The notes under the pieces: model-generated | The model's input: only the letters and a program-made list of their open reading frames with translations | The model's database searches: none | Told to the model about the DNA's origin: nothing | Program-made: the position numbers and the translations under genes | Shown here: piece after piece, positions 18,434-38,239 of the stretch | How positions within the stretch are numbered: position 1 is the stretch's first letter | How the letters are laid out: every line of letters begins with the position of its first letter | NCBI RefSeq assembly: GCF_030440425.1 | Contig: NZ_CP098023.1 | Span: forward strand, 4,370,602 to 4,434,601 | From: Microbulbifer sp. MI-G | GTDB taxonomy: Bacteria; Pseudomonadota; Gammaproteobacteria; Pseudomonadales; Cellvibrionaceae | Direction of reading: 5' to 3' | DNA length: 64,000 bases

Positions 18434-18606
18434 GACTCAGCAGTCTCCCCTATAAAGCCCTGTAACGCCTGCCTTGCTGTGCCCATTTACTTGGAAATAC
18501 ACAGTTAAATCCCCACACAAAGCCGTTTGTGTCGGGGTTGCGGCTGCTGGATCTATAGCCATAAGCGCTCCTGAAGCCCAAACCTGTTGAAACACCATAT
18601 ATTAAT

Positions 18607-18636: not shown

Positions 18637-18768
18637 TCAAGTGCATTCTCTGGAATCCACAGGAAAATGTATTTACATTTCAAAAATAAGTGCTAGTTTA
18701 TGAAGTTGGCCGGTTGCACTGATTCCACTTGAAAGGTCACAGCTCTGCTATCTGTTCAATGAGTATGT

Positions 18769-19233: not shown

Positions 19234-19299
19234 CAGCCCAACTTTATAGCACACACCATACCCTATGGCCTGTCTACTTATACAGAGCGTAGAGGCAAT

Positions 19300-19932
19300 A
19301 TGAATTTCATCCACATTGAGAGTCGACAGATTCCAGTAAAAATTGCCAGCTTTATTATTTTTATTCGATCAGAGCGTGTAAATATTCAAACGGGAGATTG
19401 GTGTGACAACCCGATGGTGAGTGTTAGATACGACTTCGAAATCATAGTAGACAACAATTCTGGAGATGATGGCGCACTTGCACCAGCCTGTAGTATATCA
19501 TTCTTATATGAAGAATATAAAGATTGCGATGTAACACATCTACCACTTGAAAAAAATACAGCGCATTATCCATTTGAGATCCAAAATAATATTGCTGATT
19601 CATGGGAAGCTGTTTTAGGAAATGATTCCTGGGAATTGGAAAATAACCGAATGACAGTGAGAAGCTTCGAGGGGAACTGTGCTCAAGTTCTCTGGGAAGC
19701 CGAATATGGTGATGTGGATAATCGACGTATTTTTCTCTTTGAGGGCTCGGTTACCTTTGATGGAATACTCGTTTGGGCAAATACTGAGACGGATATCGAA
19801 GCAGCAATTTCTCAAACCTGGAACCCAGAACTTCTGCGCAATCGACTATTTCAGGTCAGCAAGAAGGTTGACCTTGAACAATCTCCCGCGCATTGGGAGG
19901 TACAGTACCAACTTCGAAAAGTTATACCTTGA
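19300..19932 (+). CDS. Hypothetical protein
   Basis: This 210-residue acidic, cytoplasmic-looking protein has no signal peptide or membrane segment. I do not recognise the family. Segments such as VRYDFEIIVDNNSGDDG and WEAEYGDVDNRRIFLFEGSV look like beta-rich domain sequence. A GAGG site precedes the ATG. Base composition is lower in GC than the core genes, and it is next to an IS110 remnant, so it may be acquired. Confidence 0.55.
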   Translation: MNFIHIESRQIPVKIASFIIFIRSERVNIQTGDWCDNPMVSVRYDFEIIVDNNSGDDGALAPACSISFLYEEYKDCDVTHLPLEKNTAHYPFEIQNNIADSWEAVLGNDSWELENNRMTVRSFEGNCAQVLWEAEYGDVDNRRIFLFEGSVTFDGILVWANTETDIEAAISQTWNPELLRNRLFQVSKKVDLEQSPAHWEVQYQLRKVIP

Positions 19933-20029
19933 TTTTTAGCCCTGGTGTTTCAAACTCTGTGTTAACCAAATAGTCCCACTGGTTGACCTATCTCTCGACT
20001 TTATTCCGCTTGCTGTAGATCTCTCAGTC

Positions 20030-20368
20030 ATGTTCTCTGATACCCAATCGGCGCTGAATCGTGCCAAATTCCTTCCCAAGTCTTTTCAGGTGGACTATCG
20101 CCAGCCTATTAAATTTCTGGATAGGACAATTGAACCTATGGATCAGAAGCTTGGTAAGATAATCGTGAGTGAGCAGCTGAAAACAGTTCCTGGCGTTAGT
20201 AAATTACTGACCACTACATTGATTGCAGAGCTTCCCGAACTTGGAAATCTCAACCCTAAGGAGATAGCTGTCTTGGTGGGGATCACACCCTTTAACCGTG
20301 GCAATGAAGAAGATGATTTTAGTGCTGAATACGATGGTAAGAGGAGGTGCTTTCAGGGAAGGGCATGA
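20030..20368 (+). pseudogene. IS110-family transposase remnant (Transposase_20 part)
   Basis: The frame contains LKTVPGVSKLLTTTLIAELPELGNL and VLVGITPFNRGN, the C-terminal Transposase_20 domain of IS110 transposases. The N-terminal DEDD nuclease domain is absent and the C terminus is broken after the GKRRCFQGRA-like segment, so the element is dead. No ends can be defined. Confidence 0.8.
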
Positions 20369-20402
20369 TGTCAAACTGGCTGCTTGAGATCACAGTCGCT
20401 TG

Positions 20403-20717
20403 TTATATGCTGCCATAGCTGAGCTCCACCCCCAGCTTTTCATTAGCAATTCGCCATTTCAATATTTTTGAGGTGACCCAGGTGTCCTCACTTGAACTTA
20501 ATTTACTTGGCGCTTCGCTTGTATCTACAGACCAATAAAAATTACCCGATTCAACTCCAAGGCACGCCTCATCGTTTATCTGATCGTAATTTTCAAGACT
20601 TGGGACAATATTTATGCGAGTAACCTTTTCAAACAACAACTCAATACACGAGGGATCTTCAAATTGTCTCTGAATAACGAACACTATAGAAGTATCTAGC
20701 TCACCACTACATGTCAT
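20403..20717 (-). CDS. Hypothetical protein
   Basis: This 104-residue acidic protein has no signal peptide. It includes IELLFEKVTRINIVPS and WVTSKILKWRIANEKLG. I cannot assign a family. It is between the IS110 remnant and glmS, on the glmS strand, with low GC. It could be an acquired small protein such as an immunity factor, but nothing proves this. Confidence 0.45.
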   Translation of the reverse strand: MTCSGELDTSIVFVIQRQFEDPSCIELLFEKVTRINIVPSLENYDQINDEACLGVESGNFYWSVDTSEAPSKLSSSEDTWVTSKILKWRIANEKLGVELSYGSI

Positions 20718-20845
20718 TGAGTGGTTTTCACGTACTCTGTGTTTGGTTCACATGTGAGCTTCTTTTTAACACTAATCCAGGCCATGAAAGACACTCCCCA
20801 AGTCACATAATGCCGTGCACACTGGTCGGAAATATGAACGCGGGA

Positions 20846-20873
20846 TTACCAGCCCGCTGGGCCAGGCTGGTAA
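20846..20873. terminator. Hairpin downstream of glmS
   Basis: A perfect 9-bp inverted repeat TTACCAGCC/GGCTGGTAA with a 10-base loop lies 17 bp beyond the glmS stop. There is no T run, so it may act as an RNA-stabilising 3' hairpin rather than a classical terminator. Confidence 0.5.
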
Positions 20874-20889
20874 ACAGGCAGTGCCTGCT

Positions 20890-22719
20890 TCATTCCACCG
20901 TAACCGATTTGGCCAGATTCCTCGGCTGGTCCACATCGGTCCCTTTCAGTAACGCCACATGATAGCTGAGCAATTGCAAGGGCACCGTGTAAAGAATGGG
21001 TGCCAGGCTCTCGGGGGCATCCGGCACCTCGATCAGGGTAAGCCCCTCCTCACTGGCAAATCCGGCCTTGGGGCTGGCGAAGACAAACAGCTGCCCACCC
21101 CGGGCGCGCACTTCCTGCAGATTGGACTTGAGCTTTTCCAACAACTCATTATTCGGTGCCACAACAATTACCGGCATATCCGCATCCACCAGGGCCAGGG
21201 GACCGTGCTTGAGTTCACCGGCCGGGTAGGCCTCGGCGTGGATATAGGAAATCTCCTTGAGCTTCAATGCCCCCTCCAGCGCGATGGGGAACTCTACCCC
21301 GCGCCCGAGGAAGAGCGCGTGGTTTTTCTCTGCAAAAGCCTCACTGGTATGCCGCACAATTTTGTCCAGGGCAGTGAATGCTGCCATCAGCTGCGGCAGC
21401 TGGTGCAAGGCGCGCACCAGTTCGGCCTCGCGCTCGCTGGAGAGCCCATTGGCCCTGGCCAGCGCGATACAGAACAGCTGCAGGGCCACCAGTTGGGTAG
21501 TGAAGGCCTTGGTGGAAGCCACTCCAATTTCCGGGCCGGCCTCAGTCATCAGGGATAATTCTGATTCACGCACCAGGGAACTATTGGGTACATTGCAAAT
21601 GGTCATGGAAGCCAGATAGCCCAGTGCCCTGGCCTGGCGCAGGGCCGCCAGGGTGTCCGCTGTTTCCCCCGACTGGGAAATGGTGACAAACAGGGTTCCG
21701 GGGCGCACCACGGTTTTGCGATAGCGCAGTTCGCTGGCCACTTCCACCGCACAGGGCACCCCGGCCCAATCCTCCAGCCAGTAGCGGGCCACCATACCCG
21801 CATGGTAGCTGGTACCACAGGCGACAATCTGCACCTGCTCCACTTGCGGCAGAATCTCCCGGGCGCGGGTTCCCAGCGCCTGGGACAACACCGAGTGTTC
21901 GCCAATACGCCCTGCCAGGGTCGCTGCCACCACTTGCGGCTGCTCGAAAATTTCCTTCTGCATATAGTGGCGGTAACGGCCCTTGTCGGCTACGTCATGG
22001 CCACCATCCAGTTTATGTACCGGGCGGCTGACCACGTCGCCCCGCTTGTCGCGCACAGAGATACCGCTGCGACGCACCTCCGCGACATCGCCCTCTTCGA
22101 GAAAGAGAAAGCGATCAGTTACCTGGCGCAGGGCCATGGGGTCTGAGGCAATAAAGTTTTCCTCTATGCCGGCACCCAAAACCAGGGGGCTGCCGTAGCG
22201 GGCGCAGGCCAGGACATCCGGCTCCTCACTGCTGATAACGGCAAGGGCATAAGCGCCCTCCAGCAGCTGCGTGGCCTTGCCTACGGCATCCACCAGGCTG
22301 AGTCCCTCTTTGCTCAGTGAGTGAATCAGGTGCGCCACTACTTCCGTGTCGGTATCTGAGGCAAATTGATATCCCTTCCCCTGGAGCTCGCAACGCAATG
22401 CCTGATGGTTTTCAATAATACCGTTGTGCACCAGGGCGATAGGCCCGGACATATGCGGATGGGCATTTTCATTGGAGGGAACCCCGTGGGTGGCCCAGCG
22501 GGTGTGCGCAATGCCCTGGTGGCCCTCGGCAGGCCTCTCCTGCAGTTTGGCCTCCAGATCGGCAACCTTGCCCAGGCTCTTGCGCAACTGCAGCCGACCA
22601 TCCCCATTGCGCAGGCAAACGCCCGCCGAGTCGTAGCCCCGGTATTCCAGTCTCCTCAATCCCTCCAGCAGAATTTCAGTGACATTGCGTTGTGCAAGGG
22701 CGCCAACAATTCCACACAT
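20890..22719 (-). CDS. glmS: Glutamine--fructose-6-phosphate aminotransferase (isomerizing)
   Basis: GlmS makes glucosamine-6-phosphate for cell-wall and lipopolysaccharide synthesis. The 609-residue protein starts MCGIVGA, so Cys2 is the glutaminase nucleophile; the N-terminal Ntn domain is followed by two SIS domains and ends in [11 protein letters not shown], the coding part of the attTn7 target. No Tn7 element follows. It lies 53 bp after a DeoR-type regulator on the same strand. Confidence 0.97.
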
Positions 22720-27071: not shown

Positions 27072-27230
27072 TGCCAGTGCGGTGTTGGAGCCAATAAAGC
27101 GCCATCGTCAGTTTCACTGAAGGACCTGTCTGCAATATCGCAGTTGCACATGACGGTGTCGGCGCCAACATTCGCCGTCCCCACGGTTCTATCGTCCATA
27201 TAGGAGAGGTGATTGACTTTGCTGCCAGCC
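27072..27230 (-). pseudogene. Degraded glmU fragment (relic 1)
   Basis: The DNA is clearly homologous to the intact glmU of this window (about 38386-38551): it contains identical blocks CAGTGCGGTGTTGGAGCC and ATAGGAGAGGTGATTGAC. On the minus strand it translates to AGSKVNHLSYMDDRTVGTANVGA, matching GlmU AGSKVNHLSYVGDAAVGEAVNVGA in the left-handed beta-helix. A small deletion breaks the frame at the end. It is fused to a short hydrophobic N-terminal reading frame starting near 27340 that does not come from GlmU. Confidence 0.8.
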
Positions 27231-27374: not shown

Positions 27375-27429
27375 GTGTAACGCCGCAAGCAGCAGCGCTG
27401 TCAGTATTCAATGCTTTTGCCTGTTAAAG
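27375..27429 (-). repeat. attC-like site K (end of array)
   Basis: Read on the minus strand it starts CTTTAAC and ends GTTACAC, with internal pairing arms (GCAAAAGCATTG against GCTGCTTGC). It is 55 bp and follows the NTF2-like gene by 35 bp, the position of an integron recombination site. Confidence 0.5.
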
Positions 27430-27464
27430 GGCAAGCTCATTCTAGCTTTCCAACAATAGTAGTT

Positions 27465-27872
27465 TTAAAGTTTATGACTCCTCCAAATTTCTTTCCCTTC
27501 TGGCGTTTTTCCGGGTGAAGTTTTATATCTAATTAATTTCCACTTAGTTTCTTTTTTCTCTACAATAAATTGAACTGATTGCCATTGGTATTCTCCTGTA
27601 AAAGTCACTTCATAGCGCGACTTATTTTTTTTAATGGCATGGATAGAAACAGCGGAGTTTAGGTTGTTGTACCGAGAGGGTTGGCCAAAGTTTAGCCCTG
27701 ACAGGGTTCGGTTATTATCTCCATGAGCATATTGTTCAAATAAAGCATTAAAGTCTGATTCAAAGCCATTTTCTCTATAAGAAGTATCTTCAAAGCCCCT
27801 GGCTTCTAATTCATCTGCCTGTCTGGCAAACTCTTTACATAAAGCAATAATTTCTTGTTCTTCCAAATTCAT
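27465..27872 (-). CDS. Hypothetical cassette protein, NTF2-like
   Basis: The 135-residue protein has an N-terminal helix (EEQEIIALCKEFARQADEL) and a C-terminal strand-rich part (SRYEVTFTGEYQWQSVQFIVEKKETKWKLI) like NTF2-fold immunity or SnoaL-like proteins; this is a resemblance only. The ATG with AGAGGTAG upstream is chosen over starts at 27893 and 27902. It is the last complete gene of the cassette array. Confidence 0.6.
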   Translation of the reverse strand: MNLEEQEIIALCKEFARQADELEARGFEDTSYRENGFESDFNALFEQYAHGDNNRTLSGLNFGQPSRYNNLNSAVSIHAIKKNKSRYEVTFTGEYQWQSVQFIVEKKETKWKLIRYKTSPGKTPEGKEIWRSHKL

Positions 27873-27955
27873 AAGTTCTACCTCTTGTATCATAAAAGCC
27901 ACTCAAACAATGAAAAATAGGTAAGCGACCGTATTAAGTGGTTTTTCACCAAATG

Positions 27956-28028
27956 TCCTCAGCACAGCCAAGCAACTTTTTGCGAGTTCAGCGCACAAAG
28001 TGCGCGGTTTTTCGCGCAATTGTTATAT
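27956..28028 (-). repeat. attC-like site J
   Basis: On the minus strand it begins ATATAAC just after the stop of the small secreted gene, contains a GCGCG.../...GTGCGC hairpin, and ends in GCTGAGGA, a degenerate form of the GTTAGGA core seen at site A. Length is about 73 bp. Confidence 0.45.
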
Positions 28029-28029
28029 G

Positions 28030-28260
28030 TCACAGGCACTTCTTGATTTCAACATCCCTCGCATATGATTCCCATGCGGCCCTACACTCTGGAAGCACTT
28101 GATAATAATGATATGTTGAAACTGAAGCTGTGCAGGCCTGATATGGGGCGCAAGCAGCTTTCACAAACCCGGTTTTCTCTTTTTGATACTGCTCGGTTAA
28201 TTCATATGTAAGCGAGAAATCAGACAACAAAACCATCAGTGCAACCAACAAATATTTCAT
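28030..28260 (-). CDS. Small secreted hypothetical protein
   Basis: The 76-residue protein has an N-terminal signal sequence (MKYLLVALMVLLSDFSLT) and four cysteines in the mature part (AACAPYQACTAS, PECRAAW, KKCL), which could form two disulfides in the periplasm. No family recognised. There is no clear ribosome-binding site. The flanking attC-like sites mark it as one gene cassette. Confidence 0.5.
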   Translation of the reverse strand: MKYLLVALMVLLSDFSLTYELTEQYQKEKTGFVKAACAPYQACTASVSTYHYYQVLPECRAAWESYARDVEIKKCL

Positions 28261-28266
28261 AAAAAC

Positions 28267-28357
28267 ATATAACACCGTAATAATCGGTAACCACCGCTAT
28301 GCATCGCCTGACCGGTGGGGGCTCAGGCTCAGACTTTGATTCATCGCCTTGTTTTGG
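28267..28357 (-). repeat. attC-like site I
   Basis: On the minus strand it runs from CCAAAAC, which overlaps the end of the ClbS-like gene, to GTTATAT immediately before the next cassette gene. Internal arms CCACCGG / CGGTGG can pair. Length 91 bp. Confidence 0.5.
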
Positions 28358-28877
28358 GAATTTTGCTCAGTACCTTTGCTTTTTTGAACCTTCGTACTTT
28401 CGTACGGATATTTTTCATTGGGGATGAAGTATTAAACTGAATCATTCTTCCCAACGTGTAGCTTTTATACCAACTTTGGGCATAAAGTTCATTATTACTC
28501 AGAGAATCGATAAGCTGCAAAATTTGATCGATGGTTAATTGAAACTCTGATAGTAGCTGTTCATAACCCCAGTTTTGATACTGAACGTGGAAATGTTCGG
28601 CTAACTGGCCCAGCTCATTCCAGTTATACCCTGTTTCAGGGAAATCGACTTCAAGTTTGTTTGATTTAAACTTGTACCATTTTAGAACAAGTTTCCCCCA
28701 ACCAATCAAGTATGCAAGTGTATCGCAAACACTGATTTCGGTGCCTTTAATGTTTCCTTCAACGCCAATTTCCCGTGAATATTCTTTTGGAATATCTAAA
28801 TAATCCGCAAGAAGTTTGTCAAAAGCAGTTTGGATCGCTTGAACTAACTCTTCTTTATTCTTGGGTATTGATGACAT
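28341..28877 (-). CDS. ClbS/DfsB family protein (DUF1706 four-helix bundle)
   Basis: The 178-residue product follows the DUF1706 pattern: PKNKEELVQAIQTAFDKLL, KGTEISVCDTLAYLIGWGKLVLKWY, GYNWNELGQLAEHF and GRMIQFNTSSP with a basic C terminus. The family includes ClbS, which protects colibactin producers by hydrolysing its cyclopropane warhead, and DfsB; most members are uncharacterised. The ATG before SSIPKNKEEL is used, excluding a longer frame that reads into attC-like DNA. As an integron cassette it may confer protection against an electrophilic natural product (inference). Confidence 0.82.
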   Translation of the reverse strand: MSSIPKNKEELVQAIQTAFDKLLADYLDIPKEYSREIGVEGNIKGTEISVCDTLAYLIGWGKLVLKWYKFKSNKLEVDFPETGYNWNELGQLAEHFHVQYQNWGYEQLLSEFQLTIDQILQLIDSLSNNELYAQSWYKSYTLGRMIQFNTSSPMKNIRTKVRRFKKAKVLSKIPKTRR

Positions 28878-28890
28878 AGCTGATTGTTCC

Positions 28891-28979
28891 CATAATACCT
28901 GCAGTACAGGCCCCGCTGTGGCAAAGCTACGCTTTGATCGGTCCAGCACGGAGAATGATTGTGCCTGCGCGAGTTAAAA
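28891..28979 (-). repeat. attC-like site L
   Basis: On the minus strand it starts TTTTAAC and ends in a degenerate GGTATTATG core just before the ClbS-like gene. GCGCAGGCAC near one end pairs with GGGGCCTGTACTGC near the other. Length about 89 bp. Confidence 0.45.
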
Positions 28980-29158
28980 TTTTTACCCTTCTCAATCAAA
29001 TCACTTGTAAAGTAGCAATAAGTTTCATCGAGGCTGTTAAGATAGAAAAGCACTTTCTATCATACATCTCATAAACTGTACAAATAATTCCCGGGTCGGG
29101 TGGCCAGTCTATTGCCTTATCAATGAATCCGTCTTCAAGTGGAACTTGAGCCAGTTTT
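28980..29158 (-). pseudogene. Frameshifted cassette gene remnant
   Basis: One minus-strand frame reads VPLEDGFIDKAIDWPPDPG then IICTVYEMYDRKCF, and a second frame continues it as FYLNSLDETYCYFTSDLIEKGKNF, switching at a short T run (TGCTTTTCTATC). The joined sequence looks like one small protein of unknown family broken by a frameshift. No good start codon remains. Confidence 0.4.
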
Positions 29159-29218
29159 ACTTACCAGGTGGGCTCAGAATTGTCTTCTTTACATGTATCG
29201 GTTTGTATGATTGGGATA

Positions 29219-29318
29219 ATGAACTCCAACTCTTCCGCGTCCGGTACGTGGGTGAACTTGGTGTCGGCAGGCGGCCCTTACCGCTTTCACCGGTGCACCA
29301 CTGCGGTATTGGAATCGA
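29219..29318 (-). pseudogene. Degraded glmU fragment (relic 2)
   Basis: This stretch aligns with the 3' part of the resident glmU (about 38305-38413): CGTGGGTGA, TTCACCGGTGCACCA-CTGCGGTATTGGA and TCTTCCGCG correspond to CGTGGGTGA, TTTACCGGTGCCACCAGTGCGGTGTTGGA and TCGTCCGCG. Minus-strand translation gives DSNTAVV and PDAEELEF, matching GSNTALV and GADELAVA of GlmU, with internal stops. Similarity is weaker than for relic 1. Confidence 0.6.
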
Positions 29319-29383
29319 TAGTCGTGCGAAGCATGGAGCGACCGGCTGAGGCCCGTAAAGACGGAACGTATAGTATCAACTTG

Positions 29384-29621
29384 TTATGTACAAACAACCT
29401 CATTATCGTTTTCGTCGTTGCGTGAAAGCATGCCTGCCCATCTCCTAAGTCCATGCTCCACGATAAAAACCAGAAAAACGATCGTTACAGCCAATAGGCA
29501 CTTGGGCAGAGAGAAGGCTATAACAATTCCTCCCGCTAAAAGAGCAGGTAAAATTATGAAAAAAAGTCAATATGACGCTGTAACGTACGTTCCATTCATA
29601 GGTTAAGTTTTTAAACCCCAT
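29384..29621 (-). pseudogene. Small membrane protein gene with frameshift in a T7 run
   Basis: Frame one begins MGFKNLTYEWNVRYSVILTFF; after a run of seven T residues the next frame continues FIILPALLAGGIVIAFSLPK and CLLAVTIVFLVFIVEHGLRRW, ending with NDENDNEVVCT. Removing one T joins them into a ~78-residue protein with two membrane helices. The stop codon lies in an ACATAAC core (29383-29389) that is the start of another attC-like site whose other half is not clear. A sequencing error is possible. Confidence 0.5.
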
Positions 29622-29651
29622 TCCACATAACTTGTCATGTTTGCTATGGGC

Positions 29652-29751
29652 ACATAACACTGCCAGCAACAATTGGAGTGTATTGGCGGCTTTTTTGTAT
29701 TTTCAAAAAAGGGCCAGGTTTACCAGGACTGAATACTATGACTTGTTAAGA
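29652..29751 (-). repeat. attC-like site G
   Basis: On the minus strand it begins TCTTAAC, which contains the stop of the upstream cassette gene, and ends GTTATGT. A long hairpin with complementary CTTTTTTG / CAAAAAAG arms lies in the centre. Length 100 bp. Confidence 0.6.
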
Positions 29752-30156
29752 CTGCTCACTGGTGACCAGCTCTAGTAGCTTTGCATTGTACGCTTGAGCA
29801 TAATACTTATTGTACTCATGACTGCCCATATCAAGTGCAAAGTTCTCAATATGTATCCCCGCGCCACAGATGAGAAAATTTCTTGGTGCAAACTCCTTTA
29901 GTTCCCCCTCCAGTGCTGATTTAGGAATACCTGGCACTGTGTACCCCTCGTCGGGAATAAAGACCTCCACAAACTTCTTGTGATCCTGGCGGTAGTCAGT
30001 GAGCGCTTCCGAGAAACCGCGATTGGCTGACGTGACTGGGTCATTTGCTATCGCAATTAGCTCATTGCTCCGGGTAATTTCAACCCAAACCCAAGCGATT
30101 ACACCTGCCAAAAGAGCCACACCTAAGAAAAAGGTGTTTTTAACGGTTGTAACCAT
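29746..30156 (-). CDS. Hypothetical cassette protein, single membrane anchor
   Basis: The 136-residue protein has one N-terminal membrane helix (TFFLGVALLAGVIAWVWVEI) and a soluble C-terminal domain with FLICGAGIHIENFALDMG. I do not recognise a family. Its stop codon is the TAA of the following attC core, typical of compact cassettes. Confidence 0.55.
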   Translation of the reverse strand: MVTTVKNTFFLGVALLAGVIAWVWVEITRSNELIAIANDPVTSANRGFSEALTDYRQDHKKFVEVFIPDEGYTVPGIPKSALEGELKEFAPRNFLICGAGIHIENFALDMGSHEYNKYYAQAYNAKLLELVTSEQS

Positions 30157-30162
30157 ATTGAC

Positions 30163-30243
30163 CCTTAACCCTTACCGCACAGGCGAGCAACTCTGTTGCA
30201 AGCCAAGCCACGAAGTGGCTGATTGTATCTGAGCTTGCTAAAT
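30163..30243 (-). repeat. attC-like site F
   Basis: On the minus strand: ATTTAGC core (containing the upstream gene's TAG), CAAGC arm, a GCCACTTCGTGGC hairpin, then GTTGCTCGCCTGTGCGG and a GTTAAGG core. The last part is nearly the same as in site A (GTTGCTCGCCTTTGCTGCGG), showing that the sites are related repeats. Length 81 bp. Confidence 0.6.
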
Positions 30244-30705
30244 GTATGGACCATTGTCGATGACCCATGACCTTAGCTCCATGGCACTGCGAACGTTTGC
30301 AGGGAACTTCCATCTATTTAAAGCAAGCTCAGGCAGGTTTTTCTGAGGGTAAGCTACGTGATCCGTTCCGATTCTCAGGACAGTATTGGAGATAGCTAGA
30401 ATCCTGTATAAGAATTCAGCAACATTCTGCGTGAACTCTCCATGTTCTATCGCGAATGCTGAGTTTCTATTTTGGGGATTGAGCCCAAAGTCCTGGATAT
30501 TGATGAAACTCCCATCCTTCGTTGGAACGTATCGATACCCGTCCTGTCCTACATGTGTACCACCCAGGAATACTAAATAAGCCCTAAGGTCTTCGGCTTC
30601 CTTCTCAGTCAGTGGAAAGTCAACATGTGAGTAAACGACCTCGCCAGTGAACGGATGAGTTCCTTTTCTCGTTCTTGTCGTGAGATTTAGCGTATGTATT
30701 TCCAT
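30238..30705 (-). CDS. Hypothetical cassette protein
   Basis: This 155-residue soluble protein contains HPFTGEVVYSHVDFPLTEKEAEDL and RYVPTKDGSFINIQDFG. No signal peptide and no recognised family. It is followed directly by attC-like site F, which includes its stop codon. Confidence 0.55.
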   Translation of the reverse strand: MEIHTLNLTTRTRKGTHPFTGEVVYSHVDFPLTEKEAEDLRAYLVFLGGTHVGQDGYRYVPTKDGSFINIQDFGLNPQNRNSAFAIEHGEFTQNVAEFLYRILAISNTVLRIGTDHVAYPQKNLPELALNRWKFPANVRSAMELRSWVIDNGPYI

Positions 30706-30863
30706 GCAGATAAGTACATTTAAATACCGGTCACTATGGCCACCATTATCCTGATTACTGACCCGGAATCAATTCTGCGCAACTTACCCACAATCTGCAT
30801 TAGAAACAGTTAGTTATATAGATATGGCACAATCGTACAAAATATGATCACCCTCTCCGGCGT

Positions 30864-30889
30864 AAAAAACCCGGCTCAGTGCCCGGTTT
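30864..30889 (-). terminator. Intrinsic terminator, minus direction
   Basis: On the minus strand AACCGGGC-actga-GCCGGGTTTTTT forms a stem followed by a T run, about 50 bp after the small membrane ORF. A terminator inside a cassette array is uncommon and fits DNA of ordinary chromosomal origin in this 30.7-31.1 kb stretch. Confidence 0.75.
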
Positions 30890-30937
30890 GGGTGGCTGGA
30901 TAAAAGCAGCTAGCGCCGCCCTGCGAAGGGCCCCAGC

Positions 30938-31102
30938 TTATTGCTTGCGCTTATTATTTCCCTGAATGCTGGTAAACAACCCATTATACCTTTTAACCTG
31001 TTTTGGCAGAGTGAGTAATGTATGTAATGCTGACAAAGTAAATACTCCAAACACTATACACCAGCCCAAACCACGACTGATTATATTGCCAAGATAGGCC
31101 AC
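30938..31102 (-). CDS. Small membrane protein (54 residues)
   Basis: The frame from a GTG codon reads AYLGNIISRGLGWCIVFGVF then TLSALHTLLTLPKQVKRYNG and ends GNNKRKQ: one or two membrane helices with a basic tail. It has no strong ribosome-binding site. A terminator follows. The stretch AAGCGCAAGCAATAA at its end resembles the first arm of attC site A. It may be the 3' end of a truncated longer gene. Confidence 0.4.
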   Translation of the reverse strand: MAYLGNIISRGLGWCIVFGVFTLSALHTLLTLPKQVKRYNGLFTSIQGNNKRKQ

Positions 31103-31170
31103 ACCAACTCAGATTCGTCTGCATGAATCAAAGTTTCGTCTAATTTGAGTATCAGTAACTTTCTTTTCAT
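31081..31170 (-). pseudogene. Truncated HAD/NIF-like phosphatase start
   Basis: Immediately after attC-like site E an ATG opens KRKLLILKLDETLIHADES and stops after 29 codons. It matches the first strand of NIF/FCP1-like HAD phosphatases (ILDLDETLIHA), but the nucleophile Asp is Lys and the rest of the gene is missing, replaced by the small membrane ORF. Confidence 0.5.
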
Positions 31171-31183
31171 GTCTGCTCAAAAA

Positions 31184-31251
31184 ATGTAACGTCCCAACCA
31201 GCGAAAATAGGAGCGTAGCGAGTATTTTTCCGTTGTGTTGGTTTGTTAGGG
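31184..31251 (-). repeat. attC-like site E
   Basis: On the minus strand: CCCTAACAAACCAACACAAC ... GGTTGGGACGTTACAT. Outer cores CTAAC/GTTAC and inner boxes ACCAAC/GGTTGG pair, with GAAAAATACTCGC / GCTCCTATTTTCGC filling the stem. At 68 bp it is one of the clearest attC structures here. It follows the protease gene. Confidence 0.7.
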
Positions 31252-31261
31252 CAACTTACTG

Positions 31262-32107
31262 TCACTGTACTTCTATAGAAGCACATAGTTCATCCATGTT
31301 TTTAGATTTCATATTGTCCTGGAGAAAAGGATTCTGAGTGGTAATATTTTCTCTCGCCAAATCGTCTTTAGCCGAGATCACTTGTTGTATCCAATCTCTA
31401 TAAGATGAAACCCTGGTGTATAGTTCAGTGACTCCATATTCGCCAACATCATAAAACCATGAATCGGTACGTGAACTGACACCGAGTAATACATATTTAT
31501 CTCCCTCCCTAATATAGGCCGGCCCACCACTGTCACCATTTCCAGAAACCCCTTCCAGCACTTCTCCTTTTGAGCCTTTTTCAAAATTAAAAACGATATC
31601 GGTATCAGTTACTCTAATTATTTTGTTTTGGGCTTTTCTCAATCTACCGTTATTTTCCTTGTAGCTGATTGTCTGTCCATTTTGACCAGTTCCTGTCCCA
31701 CCTACACCTATGAACCAAGCTACTTTTCCCTTTTCAAAATTATCATCATATAATTCAGCCGGCTTAATATGTGTGACAGGTGAGCTAAGCTTGATTAAGG
31801 CTATGTCGTTCTCTCTTCCCAACTCATATTTAGGGTGAGCATATCGATTTGAAATAGATACTATTTCATTTCCGACATTAATTTTCTGTCCAGGATTCAT
31901 GCAAAACACAGCATGAGCTGCAGTAACAACCCATTCAGGATCAATAAGGGTTCCGTGAACGCCAATGCTGTACAAGGTTGCTAACGGAGGGAAGTCAGAA
32001 GGGACTGCGTAATAACTTTCGTCAGAAACATCATGCCGAATGACAATTGCATCAGCTGCAGATGTAATAAGACTCACTGTTAAAATCAAGAATTGAGAAA
32101 TTTTCAA
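31262..32107 (-). CDS. Secreted trypsin-like serine protease (S1 family)
   Basis: The catalytic triad is intact: His65 in VVTAAHAVF, Asp101 in ENDIALIKL and Ser183 in GNGDSGGP. The start is a TTG with AAGGAG upstream, giving a signal peptide (KISQFLILTVSLITSAADA) and 281 residues; a longer frame reads through attC-like DNA. The C-terminal ~40 residues are extra to the protease domain. A chymotrypsin-type protease as a gene cassette is notable. Confidence 0.85.
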   Translation of the reverse strand: MKISQFLILTVSLITSAADAIVIRHDVSDESYYAVPSDFPPLATLYSIGVHGTLIDPEWVVTAAHAVFCMNPGQKINVGNEIVSISNRYAHPKYELGRENDIALIKLSSPVTHIKPAELYDDNFEKGKVAWFIGVGGTGTGQNGQTISYKENNGRLRKAQNKIIRVTDTDIVFNFEKGSKGEVLEGVSGNGDSGGPAYIREGDKYVLLGVSSRTDSWFYDVGEYGVTELYTRVSSYRDWIQQVISAKDDLARENITTQNPFLQDNMKSKNMDELCASIEVQ

Positions 32108-32128
32108 ATGAAACTCCTTCTCTAGGTG

Positions 32129-32247
32129 CTCTAACTCCCACAACAGGGGGGCGGATAATGCCATGCATTTTTTGTACAAAATGGGAGCATATCGACCGCA
32201 CAAAACATGCACAGCGTTGACCGTCCCTTTGCTTGTGTTTGTTATGA
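32129..32247 (-). repeat. attC-like site D (VCR-like, 119 bp)
   Basis: On the minus strand it begins TCATAACAAACACAAGCAAA, then GGGACGGTCAACGC, and ends GTTGTGGGAGTTAGAG. The opening closely resembles Vibrio cholerae repeats (TAACAAACGCCTCAAGAGGGA, then CTGTCAACGC). The upstream gene's TAA lies in the core. Confidence 0.7.
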
Positions 32248-32670
32248 ACATACCTGCTCATCGGTAATCATATGCGACGCATACCCCGTACTCCTAATTG
32301 ATATACTTCCACGAAGAACGCAATCTGGGTAACCATAATCGAACCTTGCAGTAAAAATTACATCAGTGACGGTAAACCCTTCATCAATATGACTAGTTGA
32401 CAGTGAAAAACTGGAGGGATTAATGCCTTTGAAATTCTCTAAAACGCTGGATGGTATCTGAATTTTCTTACCATTAAGAACGAACACCATCTCTTTAATA
32501 TTGTCGTCTCTCTTCGAAAATTCAGACTTTAGGTGAAGATCAAGCTCTAGCATACCAAGATTCATCGGGAGTAATTTTTCATAACTCATTTTATCCCACC
32601 ACCAATACTCATCTTGCGACGCAAATACTGATATCGAGATAAACAGGAAAATTAAAGCGAGTGTTTTCAT
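32242..32670 (-). CDS. Secreted hypothetical cassette protein
   Basis: The ATG chosen gives a clear signal peptide (KTLALIFLFISISVFAS) and a 142-residue protein with two cysteines near the C terminus. A longer frame starting at 32784 translates the attC-like site and is rejected. Family unknown; the mature part is beta-rich (VTDVIFTARFDYGYPDCVLRG). Confidence 0.6.
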   Translation of the reverse strand: MKTLALIFLFISISVFASQDEYWWWDKMSYEKLLPMNLGMLELDLHLKSEFSKRDDNIKEMVFVLNGKKIQIPSSVLENFKGINPSSFSLSTSHIDEGFTVTDVIFTARFDYGYPDCVLRGSISIRSTGYASHMITDEQVCS

Positions 32671-32694
32671 TGGTGCTTTCAGCTCAAAACATCT

Positions 32695-32776
32695 CAATAA
32701 CCCGCAGCTGACACGTAGCGAATCGGAGTATAAGCTGTTGAGCGCCGAAGGCGCGAAGTTGATTGATTTGTTAGGC
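32695..32776 (-). repeat. attC-like site C
   Basis: On the minus strand: GCCTAACAAATCAATCAACT, a GCGCCTTCGGCGC hairpin, then CAGCTGCGGGTTATTG. The first core GCCTAAC fits the RYYYAAC consensus exactly and contains the stop of the upstream cassette gene. Length 82 bp. Confidence 0.65.
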
Positions 32777-33095
32777 TTCTTCATCGCAAGGAATTAAAAA
32801 TTTAGGACTTACACCAGGAAAATTCTCAGAGCCTCCTTCAAACCAATATGGCTTGTGGTGCACATAACTAAACAATGGCAACTCTACCTAAAAATCTTGC
32901 CCATTGATTGAGATTACTCCTCGAACAACCCAGAATCTTCCAACAGTACCCCAACCATGGTGTACAAGTTTTGTGAAGTAGAATTCTGTCTCCACTTCTA
33001 CTGGAAATAGCATCGTACGTTGTTTTCAAAAGCCAGCCGGTCAAACTTTAGTTTATCAAAGGTTCTCTTATTTTGAAGATAACTTGCCCAGTCAT
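32771..33095 (-). pseudogene. Cassette gene broken by frameshifts and a stop
   Basis: Starting at the ATG just after the attC core (33106-33112), the product can be followed through three frames: MTGQVIFKIREPLIN, KLKFDRLAFENNVRCYF, then PVEVETEFYFTKLVHHGWGT and VGRFWVVRGVISINGQDF, an in-frame TAG, and VELPLFSYVHHKPYWFEGG to IPCDEEA before the TAA in site C. It is a decayed protein of unknown family. The IS3 element inserted just upstream may have silenced it. Confidence 0.6.
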
Positions 33096-33105
33096 TAGGA
33101 AAGCC

Positions 33106-33129
33106 ACCTAACCCCTGTGCTTGGATGTT
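33106..33129 (-). repeat. attC-like site B, distal part split off by the IS
   Basis: On the minus strand AACATCCAAGCACAGGGGTTAGGT carries a GTTAGGT core that fits the GTTRRRY consensus exactly. It continues site B (34434-34485) on the far side of the IS3 element. Confidence 0.6.
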
Positions 33130-33156
33130 TGATCTGCTACCACTTTCGTGGACACT

Positions 33157-33963
33157 TTATGCCGCCATTTTTTCATACTCTAACGGCGATTGGTAGCCGA
33201 GACTGGAGTGAATCCGCTCTCGATTATAGAACTCGATATACTCGATGATATGGGCCACCGCGTCGATTTCATTTTCAAATAAACGCTGGTGAACGAGCTC
33301 TGTCTTCATACTATGGAAAAAAGATTCCACAATAGCATTATCCAGTGGATTCCCCTTTCGATTCATGCTTCTTCTCATACCCGCTGACTCAACAAGCTCT
33401 CGGTACTCATGTGCCGCGTACTCGATCCCCTGATCGGAATGGAATATACATCCTGCTTGTGGACGCTGACGCGCCAGAGCCATCTTAAGTGCGCTTTTCG
33501 TCAGCTCGCTATTCCGTTTTCGGCTGAATGACCAGCCGACGACTGATCTTGTGTATAGATCGATTACCACCGCGTGATATAGCCATCCAGCCACAGTCTT
33601 TATATAGGTAAAGTCACCAGCCCACTGAGTACCAACAGAAACAGCTGGATCCTCACCACCAAGCTGATTTCCCGTGGCAGAGTAAAATTTATGCTTACCA
33701 GGGTTCCAGGTATAAAGCCCTCTGCTAGAAGCCTTTATCCCAACCGTCTTCATAAGTCGGGATACACGCCTGACGCTACAGGATAAGCCGCTACGCTTTG
33801 GCTGCTGGTGCACTCGACGTGCTCCGTAAGCCTTTCTGAATCCTTGGTGTAGCTCCACAATAGCGTCCGTAAGGAGGCGATCGTGCTTACGCCGTTCACT
33901 CTCTTCACGATTGCGCCAAGCGTAGAAACCGCTCTTAGACACACTCAGCAGACTACACAACAT
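33157..33963 (-). CDS. IS3-family transposase OrfB (DDE integrase domain)
   Basis: The 268-residue ORF has HTH_21 (LLTDAIVELHQGFRKAYGAR) and rve integrase domains with DDE residues in WAGDFTYIKT, VVIDLYTRSVVGW and NAIVESFFHSMKTEL, ending in NRERIHSSLGYQSP. The frame is open upstream to about 34015 in the -1 frame relative to orfA, where GGAAAAAG before the orfA stop would allow programmed -1 frameshifting to make OrfAB. Confidence 0.93.
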   Translation of the reverse strand: MLCSLLSVSKSGFYAWRNREESERRKHDRLLTDAIVELHQGFRKAYGARRVHQQPKRSGLSCSVRRVSRLMKTVGIKASSRGLYTWNPGKHKFYSATGNQLGGEDPAVSVGTQWAGDFTYIKTVAGWLYHAVVIDLYTRSVVGWSFSRKRNSELTKSALKMALARQRPQAGCIFHSDQGIEYAAHEYRELVESAGMRRSMNRKGNPLDNAIVESFFHSMKTELVHQRLFENEIDAVAHIIEYIEFYNRERIHSSLGYQSPLEYEKMAA

Positions 33964-34010
33964 TCTAACGTCACGTCCCTTGTGGTTCTTCTCAACCAGC
34001 TCGAAGAGCT

Positions 34011-34379
34011 TTACTTTTTCCGTTGGAAGAACCGCTCGGCCTTTTTTAGCAAATCAATCTCATCGTTCCGATTGGCCAGCTCTCGTTCAAGCTTCTTGAT
34101 CTTCTTTTCCGCAACAGCGAGCTTGTCTTCGGCTTCGCGAACAGGATCTGTTCTACCAGGTCGGCGCTTAAGCGATAGTTTAGATGGCTTCATATATTTA
34201 TTTTCCTTCAGCTCTCCTCGGCGGTGCTCCATCTACCATCGATATAGCATCACAGAATGTATGCCGAGGGATTCTGCCACATCCTTTGACCTAACGTCAG
34301 GATGATTGGCCAACTTAACGGCTTGAAGCTTGTAAGCCAAAGTGTAACGGTCGTAGTTTCTCTTTTTTGTTTGCCCCAT
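34011..34379 (-). pseudogene. IS3-family OrfA with in-frame amber codon
   Basis: The frame begins MGQTKKRNYDRYTLAYKLQA with a transposase_8 helix-turn-helix (AVKLANHPDVRSKDVAESLG), reaches LYRW and then a TAG at codon 49, followed in the same frame by MEHRRGELKEN and a coiled-coil leucine-zipper-like stretch (AEKKIKKLERELANRNDEID). The nonsense codon probably inactivates transposition unless it is suppressed or translation restarts at the following ATG. Confidence 0.8.
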
Positions 34380-34433
34380 TCTGATCCTCCTTCATGAACA
34401 GTAAATACCGTCCACGAAAGTGGTTACAGATCA

Positions 34434-34485
34434 CCGAGCGAAGCGAAGGTCCAGCCGAAGGCGAACATGCTTAACCTTGTTAGGG
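34434..34485 (-). repeat. attC-like site B, proximal part
   Basis: On the minus strand CCCTAACAAGGTTAAGCATG, then TTCGCCTTCGGCTGG and CTTCGCTTCGCTCGG, directly follows the SMI1/KNR4 gene and is cut by the IS3 right end. ATGTT in this half can pair with AACAT in the distal half. Without the IS the site would be 76 bp. Confidence 0.65.
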
Positions 34486-34488
34486 CTT

Positions 34489-35214
34489 TCACCACTCAAC
34501 CTCTGTTAGTTTGGCCATAAAGTCATTAAAGGAATTTGCCACTGGAACAAATCTATTTCTCAACAGTTCGAATTCGCAATCTTCAGGCAAACTTTCTAAA
34601 CTGTTTATGACTTGATAGGGTTCAAATTCAGACAATTCATTTGTTTTCTTTATTTGGCTTCGATCAAAGCCATATTTTTCTAGGGTATTTAACAGTTTCT
34701 GTTCGTAGTAACAGTGACCAAACTTTTCCAGCATAAATTTACGACCGAATATCGAATACATATAGCCGTCATAATAGTAATAGACCTGACCAAAATCTCT
34801 TTGGTCTGTGGATATTGCAAAGAGACTACCAGATGATTCTTCCTCGTATGCGAAAGACATCATATTGTCAGGAAGAATATCAAAATTTTCTTTAGAGTTT
34901 TCATTAGAGGCAAACAGCTCTGGCCAGTTTGTATTTGAAGGTTCATTACCGTCAAAACGGTCATACCAAACGCCAAAAATGCCTGCCACATCTGCCTTTT
35001 CTATGAATGGCAAATCAATTTTAAGCTGTATTCCGATTTCCAATTCGTCATCATTAGGCGAAAATATACAGCCGTTTGTTTCTTGCAGAAAATCGCCATA
35101 TTCACTTGGAAATTTATTGTATCCAAATCTTTCTTTAAGGCGATTACTAACGTCCAAAATATCATCTGGAGTTAACGAAGGAAATTGAGGTATAACCTCT
35201 ATATTCTTGAACAT
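34489..35214 (-). CDS. SMI1/KNR4 (SUKH) family protein
   Basis: The 241-residue protein matches the SUKH fold outline: LTPDDILDVSNRLKERFGYNKFPSEYGDFLQETNG near the N terminus, then FIEKADVAGIFGVWYD and a later FGQVYYYYDGYMYSIFGRKF. SUKH proteins are frequent immunity proteins against contact-dependent or polymorphic toxins. No toxin gene is adjacent. Start MFKNIEVIP is used. Confidence 0.8.
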   Translation of the reverse strand: MFKNIEVIPQFPSLTPDDILDVSNRLKERFGYNKFPSEYGDFLQETNGCIFSPNDDELEIGIQLKIDLPFIEKADVAGIFGVWYDRFDGNEPSNTNWPELFASNENSKENFDILPDNMMSFAYEEESSGSLFAISTDQRDFGQVYYYYDGYMYSIFGRKFMLEKFGHCYYEQKLLNTLEKYGFDRSQIKKTNELSEFEPYQVINSLESLPEDCEFELLRNRFVPVANSFNDFMAKLTEVEW

Positions 35215-35234
35215 GTTTAGATTTCTTTAAAGTG

Positions 35235-35297
35235 TCCTAACGCCCGCAGCAAAGGCGAGCAACTTGTTGCAAGTACTGTTGCTTGCGCTTGTTAGCC
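35235..35297 (-). repeat. attC-like site A
   Basis: On the minus strand: GGCTAACAAGCGCAAGCAAC ... AAGTTGCTCGCC ... GCTGCGGGCGTTAGGA. Outer CTAAC/GTTAG and inner GCAAGCAAC/GTTGCTCGC arms pair. The TAA of the upstream gene is in the core. Length 63 bp; a clear attC. Confidence 0.75.
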
Positions 35298-36134
35298 TGA
35301 GATACCTGCTTCACTAAGGCCATCAGTTAGTGAACCAGAAATTACAATCGAATGCCCCAAGAACATGTCACCATCATCATGACAAAACTCGAATTTTCCA
35401 TCAGGATAAACAGTAATAAATAGCAACTCCATCGAATTAATAAAATCTGACGCAGTAAATTCCTTTTGCCCTTCAAGCCAATTCTCATTCATTACTTCAA
35501 GGAGTTCAGAAACTGCATAGTCCGCAATTTTCTTAGACCAATCACCAGATTGGCTATACAGAGCCTCTATAGTTTTTAGACTACTACTGATAGAACCATC
35601 TTCTTCATCTACAGAGACCGAAAGTTCTACTGGCTCTCCCTGCCAATTTATTCTGCCTTCAAAACAATCTAACGACCTATCAAGCACTAAGACACCAAAC
35701 TCCGGGTGGGTAACTTCTACTGGCTCTTTATATTTTTCTAGTGCTGCTTTAAGTTCAATGTCATCCGGGGTATCTAAAATGGATAATAGTTGTGCTCTAG
35801 CATCACCGAACGGACTCTCTTTTGAGAGCTTAACTTTAAATTGCACCAAGGATTCTCGCTCAACGTGATCTTGAATAAGTTTTAACTCGTTGTAAGTAAG
35901 TTCATTCGAAAAAATGAGAGGTGAATTGTTTATTTTTTTTCCAAGCTCTTTCCAGGCTATTAGAGATAGTTTCAATGACCAGTATTCATCTCCCGGAACT
36001 TTGCCTGCTCCTCGCTTATTACCTACTGCACCACGAGCTCCAACAACACCTGTTATTATTGTTTCTGGCAGCTCAGCGAATTCTCTATGAAGTTTTTCCT
36101 TTTTAATAGAGGTATCTTCAAACATATCTTCCAT
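35292..36134 (-). CDS. Hypothetical cassette protein (280 residues)
   Basis: This acidic soluble protein includes a Gly-rich N-terminal stretch (GVVGARGAVGNKRGAGKVPGD) and a domain with EFGVLVLDRSLDCFEGRINW and VELSVSVDEEDGS, a pattern seen in DUF2262-type proteins; I hold that resemblance loosely. The ATG lies 5 bp after the stop of the preceding broken gene, so the two formed one cassette transcript. It ends in attC site A. Confidence 0.6.
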   Translation of the reverse strand: MEDMFEDTSIKKEKLHREFAELPETIITGVVGARGAVGNKRGAGKVPGDEYWSLKLSLIAWKELGKKINNSPLIFSNELTYNELKLIQDHVERESLVQFKVKLSKESPFGDARAQLLSILDTPDDIELKAALEKYKEPVEVTHPEFGVLVLDRSLDCFEGRINWQGEPVELSVSVDEEDGSISSSLKTIEALYSQSGDWSKKIADYAVSELLEVMNENWLEGQKEFTASDFINSMELLFITVYPDGKFEFCHDDGDMFLGHSIVISGSLTDGLSEAGISG

Positions 36135-36139
36135 CTACC

Positions 36140-36475
36140 TCATTCCCCAATAAGGCTAACCTTTATATACCGATCGCCATAACCAGTACTTCCTTGATCA
36201 GTATTTCTGGATTCTTTTTGTGCCAAAATTTCAAAACCCCAATTGTAATCAATTAGATAAAATAATTTCGCACTATCAAACCACCTGAAATCATAATCAC
36301 TGCAACCATTATCCCAAAAATCACCAATAAATGTAACCCTCCGGATTTCTTCAATTTTCAGGAGAAGTTACCACTCTCTCAAAAATACCGCTCGGGTTGA
36401 TCAAATTGTCCTTTCGCACTCGGTTAAAGCATCGGTAGAGTCAAAGCTATTAATTACAGGTTTCTCTCAATGGAT
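36140..36475 (-). pseudogene. Frameshifted gene at the head of the array
   Basis: Minus-strand frames give EKPVINSFDSTDALTECERT, then NPSGIFERVVTSPE, then KIEEIRRVTFIGDFWDNGC, DYDFRWFDSAKLFYLIDYNW and a final GYGDRYIKVSLIGE. The second switch is repaired by adding one A in the run of CCTGAAAATTG. The protein family is unknown. It precedes the 280-residue gene by a few bases. Confidence 0.5.
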
Positions 36476-37020
36476 GCTAATCCCAATCCTGTTCCTCTGT
36501 ATTCTTTTCACTTTATGGATCTTTTGCAGACCTGAAAACTTTCCGTGTCACTAAAGTACGGATTGGACAGAACACAAGGCTCCAGCCTGGTGTCCTTATC
36601 CACTGTAACAAATTTCGCTGTGCGCGATTTATCGGATAAACATATCGCCAACCCCCGCGCTAATAATAAGTTAAGTGGGTGAATGGCCCCTCTCAGATCC
36701 TCTACAAACCCGCGGCTCAGTGCAAAGCCAGTGTCACGTTTTTTGTGTTCCAGTGCTGGAAGCCATAGCCCGCAGCAAGAGAAATAACCTTCACAGTGAA
36801 GCAAGCGGATTCGCTGCGGGCCTGGTGCCAGGCTGCCAGTCAATGCCGGTAAACGCCAGAGGGAGAGCGCTGGCATTACCGGTATATTTCACACATCGGA
36901 ATTTTGGAAAACAAATCACTGAAAGACGGTATGGGGTATGCGTATTGGGCATTCTCAAGCAATACGCAGCGGCGGCTACACAGTATTGTTGACAGGCTCC
37001 CCCACTGGGCGGCCGGTTTC
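36476..37020. other. Noncoding gap at the upstream edge of the cassette array
   Basis: Neither strand has a convincing gene. Frames at 36508-36876 (minus) and 36675-36992 (plus) overlap and look like translated noncoding DNA. I searched by eye for an integron integrase (tyrosine recombinase motifs such as HDLRHSFATHLL) and saw none. Confidence 0.5.
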
Positions 37021-37209
37021 TCAACGGCTTCCATTGTTTAGTTCCTCTTCCTTTTGGATACGCAGATACACTTCTTCACGGTGCACGGGCAGGGATTTGG
37101 GGGCCGCAATACCCACCCTGACCTGATTGCCTGAAATACCCAATACGGTGACGGAAACATTTTTTCCAATTCTGAGGTTCTCGCCTGGCCGGCGTTTTAC
37201 AACCAACAT
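37021..37209 (-). CDS. csrA: Carbon storage regulator CsrA/RsmA
   Basis: This 62-residue RNA-binding protein blocks or stabilises mRNAs at GGA sites. It begins [15 protein letters not shown] and contains [19 protein letters not shown], the conserved RNA-contact strand and VHREE motif. The start follows GGAAGG; a longer frame with 26 extra codons is rejected. The [10 protein letters not shown] opening differs from the usual MLILTRRVGE, so it may be a CsrA paralogue. Confidence 0.93.
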
Positions 37210-37776
37210 AAGCCTTTCCTTCCGGATCGCAAATCCTGGAGTGATTTTTTGTGATGGGAATAGCTGGAAAATAACGACGGGAGGCAAGGCAGGGTGGGGC
37301 GCGGGAACGGTAGGCGGTAAAGCAAAACAGGCGCGTGCAACGCTTCCAGAGCCTGGGCAACCACCCCAGGCGTCTGGTAATGTCCCACTTTATTGAAGAC
37401 GAGCGGGCTTCTAGCGTATTATCCATAGAGCCATTTTGATATCACGTTATCAATTTGGTTAGCTGGCCCTTTGGTGTTAGTGCACCTTGGGTCAGCGCCT
37501 TTTACTTACGCTTAGGTCACGTACCGTTCTCCTGTGGAAGGGAAGGGGTTTGGGAAAATGCCTGGGTATTTCGATGCTATTGGGCCATTGGCGCAGAGCG
37601 GCTGGCCCAATTACAACCCATCACGCAGATAAATATTTATCGATTTTACGCCGCTCTTGCAGGAAAGAAAACGAAATACCATCCAATAAGATAATTTTGG
37701 TGCCACTATTTCTATTGATATGCGCACGAAAAAACGCAATGGACCCACCCGTTGACTGGGTCCGCTTTATTGCCAT
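37210..37776. other. Gap upstream of csrA
   Basis: The stretch holds the csrA leader and promoter region on the minus strand and otherwise only overlapping short frames without family resemblance. An extended hairpin GCAATGGACCCA/TGGGTCC-GCTTT-ATTGC lies at 37736-37772 and could be a weak minus-strand terminator, with a T6 run six bases beyond the stem. Confidence 0.4.
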
Positions 37777-37992: not shown

Positions 37993-38239
37993 AGCCTGGC
38001 GTGTCTGCCGGGGCTCACTCTGCGAAAATCCGTCAGGGTCTGCGCCCACTGACCTCGTTTATCCTGGCAACGAAGCAATACCGAAACGGGCCAGTGGCTC
38101 ACTCTGGAGTTTTGTAAGGTAGGGCGCCCCTTTGGATTGCAGAGGCGCATGTGTTGCGGCAAGAGGCGGGGGGAATGCGCACACCGTGGGCCTGCCCGCT
38201 GGCATTCACCCCATCACCGGGGCGGGCTGAGGCAGATGA

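Follow-up and report, generated by a model that had tools for sequence, protein, structure and literature searches.

How does an array of integron cassettes come to stand in a genome that has no integron integrase? The question is raised by a 64,000-nucleotide stretch of Microbulbifer sp. MI-G (the window; positions 4,370,602 to 4,434,601 of contig NZ_CP098023.1, G000:C1:4370602-4434601). An earlier sequence-only reading had described in it, at 27375..36475, a cassette cluster with about twelve attC-like sites and no integrase. The source genome (G000) comprises 4.48 Mb in 2 contigs and is 99.99% complete. The array possesses an attI site of its own and no working integrase, and the evidence gathered here points to its being, probably, a fossil satellite of a many-headed integron in which one integrase would serve the heads in trans.

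An attI-headed cassette array without an intact integrase

Sites of the attC type were searched for with a covariance model (R1) whose training set came solely from arrays next to integrases in other Microbulbifer genomes and included no sequence of the window. The source material consisted of 20 stretches next to integron integrases, in which a motif scan recovered 222 sites in the expected orientation and 64 in the opposite one, against 37 per shuffled set. Of 33 divergent candidates four were dropped by eye, leaving 29 sites from which the model was built. The stems of R1 covary (92.9% of cells paired versus 67.6% in shuffled alignments; score 0.535 versus 0.113), a flattering figure given that the sites were partly chosen by arm pairing. 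A simple scan for R boxes and arm pairing gave 166 chance matches on one strand and proved useless; covariance models were used instead.

The four best R1 matches in the window, obtained with filters off, are minus-strand attC sites with E values between 2.9e-9 and 1.6e-5; the next-best match (E 0.063) lies outside the array. A fifth site, attC-2, is split by an IS3-family insertion sequence (IS) with 24-bp terminal inverted repeats (33130-33153 and 34410-34433), and is found unsplit in the sister genome (L143:11310-11376; 32.5 bits, E 7.3e-6). The sister is G048 ('Uncultured Microbulbifer sp. isolate 3-40-3Z', the record to which L035 belongs) and, to judge from matching contig coordinates, is probably identical with G039. 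As controls, 22 E1alpha loci from Microbulbifer (461 kb, default filters) yielded one R1 match, with E 0.77, and four of those loci (82 kb, filters off) yielded three, the best reaching 10.2 bits (E 2.7); R1 scores near 10 bits are therefore meaningless singly. The weak matches nevertheless cluster, as four of seven fall in the array and on its strand (binomial p 7.5e-4), namely those at 28267, 29652 and 27375 and the stump of the split site at 34469. No match at E up to 10 was obtained for the sites listed near 27956, 28891, 29383 and 30163, and Rfam at gathering thresholds gave no match in the window.

The covariance search proposed with the sequence-only reading thus placed four sites well above control background, and the twelve sites resolve into five that are well supported (one of them IS-split), three that singly are at chance level and four that were not found. 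The claim that genes stop within the first core of the site was directly seen only for the gene at 35292. The predicted minus-strand orientation of the open reading frames (ORFs) holds, as does the lower GC content (0.40-0.45 in the array against about 0.60). The seven of twelve listed sites that are at chance level singly or absent might suggest that the inverted repeats arose by chance or are hairpins of another kind; set against this are the four strong sites and the split fifth, the chance-level controls, the attI heads described below and the array in the sister genome. The hairpin explanation is refuted for the five sites and its overall probability is negligible. The locus is a genuine integron cassette array, with several same-strand attC sites and no intact integrase, that is, a cluster of attC sites lacking an integrase (CALIN).

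The sequence just 5' of the first cassette recurs 5' of other attC clusters in G000. A sequence-only attI model (R2), built from 16 G000 copies of this head with both window copies excluded, detected the head of the array and a second head inside it (Table 1). The first head aligns contiguously over 383 bp with the attI-intI region of the relative G030 (57%, E 8.8e-14), the alignment extending into the first intI codons. Interpretation of the conserved leader as a gene was rejected, given that several copies carry stops and that it aligns with the attI-intI spacer. At the end of this spacer stands a divergent intI 5' stub with one in-frame stop. Taken alone its tblastn E value is only 0.34, yet its ungapped score of 61 compares with a next best of 14 among 1753 ATG windows. 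The distance between its ATG and the attI junction is 313 bp, compared with 316 bp in G030, where the integron is intact, and the sister genome carries a corresponding stub with its ATG at 298 bp. Since the stub matches the IntI N-terminus at the expected place and strand, the beginning of an integrase gene evidently belonged to the array at one time or was copied along with it. Compared with a complete integron, the array has an attI at the relative's spacing and, in place of an intact intI, a stub of 35 codons with a stop.

The earlier claim that no integrase is present proved correct, the best TIGR02249 score in G000 being 74 bits against a cut-off of 265; no IntI above cut-off was found in the sister genome either. 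Across the genus, 42 of 48 genomes have a match above cut-off; in G000, G025, G034 and G039, IntI gave none at E 1e-30. The sthA site, where intI resides in G030 and G045, was discarded as an integron site in G000, where homology with G030 stops at a thioesterase gene and the best IntI match has E 0.26. The cluster is therefore without an integrase, as first described, but is not headless: besides its own attI and an intI stub it has another attI head within it. Also, G025 (99% complete) shows 31 attC matches, the best at 65.8 bits, and five R3 heads (model R3 is introduced below), perhaps reflecting a more recent intI loss.

attI heads dispersed over Microbulbifer genomes

When applied to the 48 genomes, R2 gave matches at E <= 0.01 in 12, one of which (G015) has a single weak match. 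Copies number 36 in G000, 48 in the IntI-less G039 and 3-9 in each of nine IntI-positive genomes. Comparison of coordinates places an R2 site on the array strand 303-306 bp away from where the IntI match begins in G009, G030, G031, G044 and G045, and, likewise on the array strand, 412 bp from a fragment of intI in G029. Because R2 sites stand beside intI in these relatives, R2 recognises the attI of one IntI lineage, though it was trained on orphan copies only. A mixed set of 48 loci gave weak R2 matches only (best E 0.039), at three integrase loci, and the 22 E1alpha loci gave none. Of the 49 R2 sites in loci of G000, G030, G045 and the sister genome, 25 are followed within 1.5 kb by an attC on their own strand and none by one on the opposite strand, by a list that omits the weak window matches and three matches under 16 bits. 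By genome, the same-strand sites amount to 6/6 in G030, 4/6 in G045, 14/36 in G000 and 1/1 in the sister. The second G000 contig (43.5 kb) contains three attI heads, and no attC was detected in 19 kb of it (L165, G000:C2:6000-25000).

A model for the attI of the other IntI lineage (R3), derived from 19 intI-linked attI sites, gave 234 matches in 46 of the 48 genomes, with at least two in 42 of them and a maximum of 15; in G000 and G039 there is a single weak match each. The same genomes contain 76 IntI matches, at most three per genome, so at least two thirds of the R3 sites cannot each have an adjoining intI. The orphans analyzed were all 20 listed intI-distant sites in G036, G037, G007, G033 and G017, six further matches not being listed. 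All 20 lead arrays, the 100 attC sites downstream (100/100) being on the same strand, and in 7 kb around each no IntI was detected by tblastn at E 0.01. Eighteen of the 20 align with one of five intI-linked heads, the alignment reaching 235-275 bp upstream of the cut in 14, past 300 bp in two and less far in two. The array in the window is hence one of many integrase-less, attI-headed arrays dispersed over Microbulbifer genomes.

According to the proposed scheme, a satellite would consist of attI and the region normally found between attI and intI (a module of ~250 bp or more, sometimes including the first intI codons), followed by cassettes with same-strand attC sites. In IntI-positive relatives a few integrases (one to three matches per genome) would act in trans on all heads, a genome thus holding few integrases and many insertion sites. 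The G000 lineage would have lost intI, leaving an array that is now mostly fossil and still gene-carrying.

Insertion at attG sites would leave only a short core in common. Here the sequence in common between heads and intI-linked attI regions amounts to about 100-390 bp, and the heads are detected by attI models; they are not genomic targets devoid of attI homology. That IntI placed the cassettes at random attG sites, without special heads, is accordingly a highly improbable origin for the arrays, even if attG insertion as such is published (Loot et al. 2024, Nat Microbiol, as cited in PMC11023631).

Several known systems resemble the arrays in part. CALINs, as characterised with IntegronFinder 2.0 (PMC9024848), also combine several attC sites and cassettes with no nearby intI, and differ from the array in the window in that the latter has its own attI head, a second head inside and an intI stub. 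A sedentary chromosomal integron would share the attI, the divergent intI position, the same-strand cassettes and a promoter-like site such as that before the second head; the differences are that intI is only a stub in the window and that a genome has many heads, not a single one next to intI. In Saccharophagus degradans 2-40, a main integron and five dispersed satellite sites with the same 140-bp repeat have been described (PMC2386152), a layout of main integron plus dispersed satellites resembling the present one; there the repeat lies between transcription units, and the main text of that paper mentions neither attI nor attC. Xanthomonas likewise has a genus-wide integron with intI loss and CALINs at secondary loci away from ilvD, for which the relevant sections of PMC12444791 describe no attI heads. 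The truncated-attI (delta-attI) cassettes of class 1 and 2 integrons are similarly extra attI copies away from intI, but are mostly short attI pieces replacing attC within mobile integrons, not dispersed array heads (PMC12901181). An open-licence literature search returned no report of dispersed attI heads, which is weak evidence as the returns were partly empty or unrelated.

Cassette turnover at heads without an adjoining integrase gene

Turnover was assessed in 61 between-species pairs of R2 heads sharing at least 800 bp of upstream flank, the pairs being non-independent. In 44 of the 61, the point where homology ends is, in each genome, no more than 12 bp from the attI cut. By the authors' grouping the pairs represent about eleven loci, one of them intI-linked, and ten have at least one pair ending at the cut. 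Given that flank homology ends at the attI cut in orthologous pairs, cassettes have evidently been replaced at heads without an adjoining intI, and IntI acting in trans would be the simplest reading of this turnover.

An alternative without any action in trans is that each satellite is a duplicate of a formerly complete integron that lost its own intI. The intI stubs fit this (about 35 codons in the window and about 70 bp in the G030_a satellite), as do two of the 18 aligned R3 orphan heads, which align to -323 and -347, beyond the usual end near -250. However, orthologous intI-less heads in two species hold unrelated cassettes starting at the attI cut, suggesting that insertion continued after intI was absent from the heads, unless it was lost separately per species and locus. 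Passive fossils of this kind are, on balance, an unlikely account of the satellites. A different source of the between-species differences could be homologous recombination at repeated heads or attC sites, or deletions, with no contribution of IntI. Heads and attC families are indeed repeated within genomes, and the arrays of the IntI-less G000 and its sister differ after cassette 2, for which differential deletion could account. Yet homologous recombination would scatter breakpoints across the 250-bp head, whereas they fall within a few bases of the G|TT cut at 10 of about 11 loci (the same grouping), making this explanation quite improbable.

Comparison with the sister genome, the check on cassette gain and loss in a relative that the sequence-only reading had called for, showed that the insertion is shared. 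Homology of 91.6% runs across glmU, csrA, the head, cassette 1, attC-1 and cassette 2, ending at attC-2, and beyond attC-2 the cassettes differ except for the protease cassette. Also, a group II intron (Rfam group-II-D1D4 families) occurs in the sister array, at L143:12890-13242.

A number of results weigh against supply in trans to satellite arrays. The difference between the G000 and sister arrays, arising in an IntI-less lineage, needs an earlier or visiting integrase, or deletions. No listed attC was present at the locus for 13 of 36 R2 sites in G000 and one of six in G045, and two of the 20 R3 orphans align to none of the five intI-linked heads tried. The attC scores of G000 are not significantly below those of the G030 and G045 loci; genome-wide attC decay after intI loss is correspondingly unsupported (medians 38.2 in G000 and 41.2 in the fetched G030 and G045 loci, for scores of 20 bits or more; p 0.30). 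Among the 61 orthologous pairs, which are not independent, 16 lose homology 51-757 bp before the cut in each genome (for at least one, G030/G045, looser settings extend it to +10), and in one pair it runs through the cut, to +1096. The R2-linked intI is fragmentary in G029 and was not found in G035, yet two of the heads that they share, with flanks 94-95% identical, carry different cassettes, so that another IntI must serve those heads or the loss was very recent. Finally, action in trans is read from breakpoints, with no recombination observed; seen directly are the attC sites, the attI heads, the stub and the absence of intI, the coupling of heads and arrays on one strand, and cassette turnover bounded at the attI cut.

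With these points considered, a many-headed integron in Microbulbifer is somewhat favoured, in which a few IntI would serve in trans up to a dozen or more dispersed heads, each having an attI and a control module of its own, cassettes being collected and probably expressed at many chromosomal sites; unrecognised heads may explain many CALINs. The origin of integrase-less cassette clusters is unsettled, and a recognisable head separates those of Microbulbifer from headless clusters and attG insertions, turning the feeding of many attI sites by one integrase into a directly testable idea. If true, the first, expressed cassette position would not be unique, and many recently captured cassettes could be expressed side by side in one genome.

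Flanks, cassette genes and neighbouring features

The location of the insertion between the E1alpha operon and csrA/glmU, as originally described, was corroborated by relatives, which mostly have glmU adjoining E1alpha. The two are directly adjacent in 23 of 26 Microbulbifer loci; of the remainder, two have no glmU within the compared piece and one only a glmU relic. Cassette proteins gave no match at E < 1e-6 in these 26 loci. Decayed copies of the glmU-E1alpha junction flank the insertion at both ends (Table 1). As these copies stand beside the glmU relic and the same insertion in the sister genome, the insertion is older than the split from the sister and probably arrived together with a local duplication. 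Flanking direct repeats were rejected as a general mark of satellite formation, being present at the window locus and at none of 14 other loci so tested; a separate self-comparison of G000 made repeats visible in several clusters.

Table 1. Features of the cassette array and its flanks, in window coordinates.
Feature	Position	Strand	Evidence
Decayed duplicate of glmU 3' part, adjoining E1alpha	27074..27229	-	79% over 160 bp; present too in sister L035
Last attC-like site	27375..27429	-	8.5 bits, E 6.2; singly non-significant
Last cassette gene, no family	27465..27902	-	ORF; no Pfam match
Small cassette ORF, no family	28030..28275	-	ORF; no Pfam match
Degenerate attC-like site	28267..28357	-	10.8 bits, E 1.5; singly non-significant
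DUF1706 cassette gene	28341..28877	-	Pfam E 7.2e-54; start by eye
Second decayed glmU 3' fragment, within array	29226..29320	-	72% over 104 bp
Degenerate attC-like site	29652..29751	-	9.5 bits, E 3.4; singly non-significant
Cassette gene, no family	29746..30156	-	ORF; no Pfam match
Gene behind second head, no family	30238..30705	-	ORF; no Pfam match
Second attI head, within array; cut-site triplet GTA	30716..30767	-	R2 43.6 bits, E 1.7e-12
Promoter-like TTGTAC-16-TATAAC, directed into cassettes	30813..30840	-	Recurs in related copies; consensus judged by eye
Terminator-like hairpin and T-run before second head	30864..30888	-	Located; similar element 5' of several other copies
attC-5	31184..31251	-	R1 30.9 bits, E 4.6e-6
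Trypsin-like protease cassette gene	31262..32107	-	Pfam PF00089 E 5.3e-19; start by eye
attC-4, best-scoring in window	32129..32247	-	R1 42.7 bits, E 2.9e-9
Cassette gene, no family	32242..32670	-	ORF, start by eye; no Pfam match
attC-3	32684..32776	-	R1 28.9 bits, E 1.6e-5
attC-2, second half with R' box	33106..33129	-	Sequence
IS3-family element inside attC-2	33130..34433	-	NCBIfam NF033516 E 4.4e-81
attC-2, first half, IS-split	34434..34485	-	Partial R1 match, E 0.83
Cassette 2 gene, SMI1/KNR4 (SUKH)	34489..35214	-	Pfam E 2.4e-5, at family cut-off of 25.4 bits
attC-1	35235..35297	-	R1 35.8 bits, E 2.1e-7
Cassette 1 gene, DUF2262/DUF7021	35292..36134	-	Pfam E 4.8e-35; stop inside attC R'' box
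attI heading array; cassette 1 joined at G|TT	36157..36190	-	R2 27.4 bits, E 1.9e-7
Control region between attI and intI	36191..36469	.	Homologous to G030 region
Divergent intI 5' stub, 35 codons, one in-frame stop	36470..36574	+	tblastn 43% over 35 aa
Decayed E1alpha 5' fragment behind intact glmU	38025..38114	-	71% over 96 bp, E 6.7e-10

Among the cassette genes, the protease gene encodes a product 77% identical in amino acid sequence (76% at the DNA level) to that of the sister's cassette. It also matches the PADLOC LmuA model (E 1.3e-12), in the protease part only, and identification as LmuA was rejected on that account.

Several heads (L128:4472, L130:17051, L131:8360 and L132:10026) follow the end of a repeated gene that resembles, by eye, an M15 peptidase, a possible clue to how heads are copied. 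A repeat of ~700 bp with a csrA-like gene (window 37016-37741) has seven further copies in G000 at 76-85% identity, one weaker partial copy (64%) and several copies in the sister genome; it was discarded as a carrier of the array, its other copies not coinciding with attI heads. A second low-GC stretch (0.44-0.49) occupies positions 12000-20900 of the window, directly behind a 609-aa ORF (20890-22719) that resembles glmS, as judged by eye; this is a site known as the target of Tn7.

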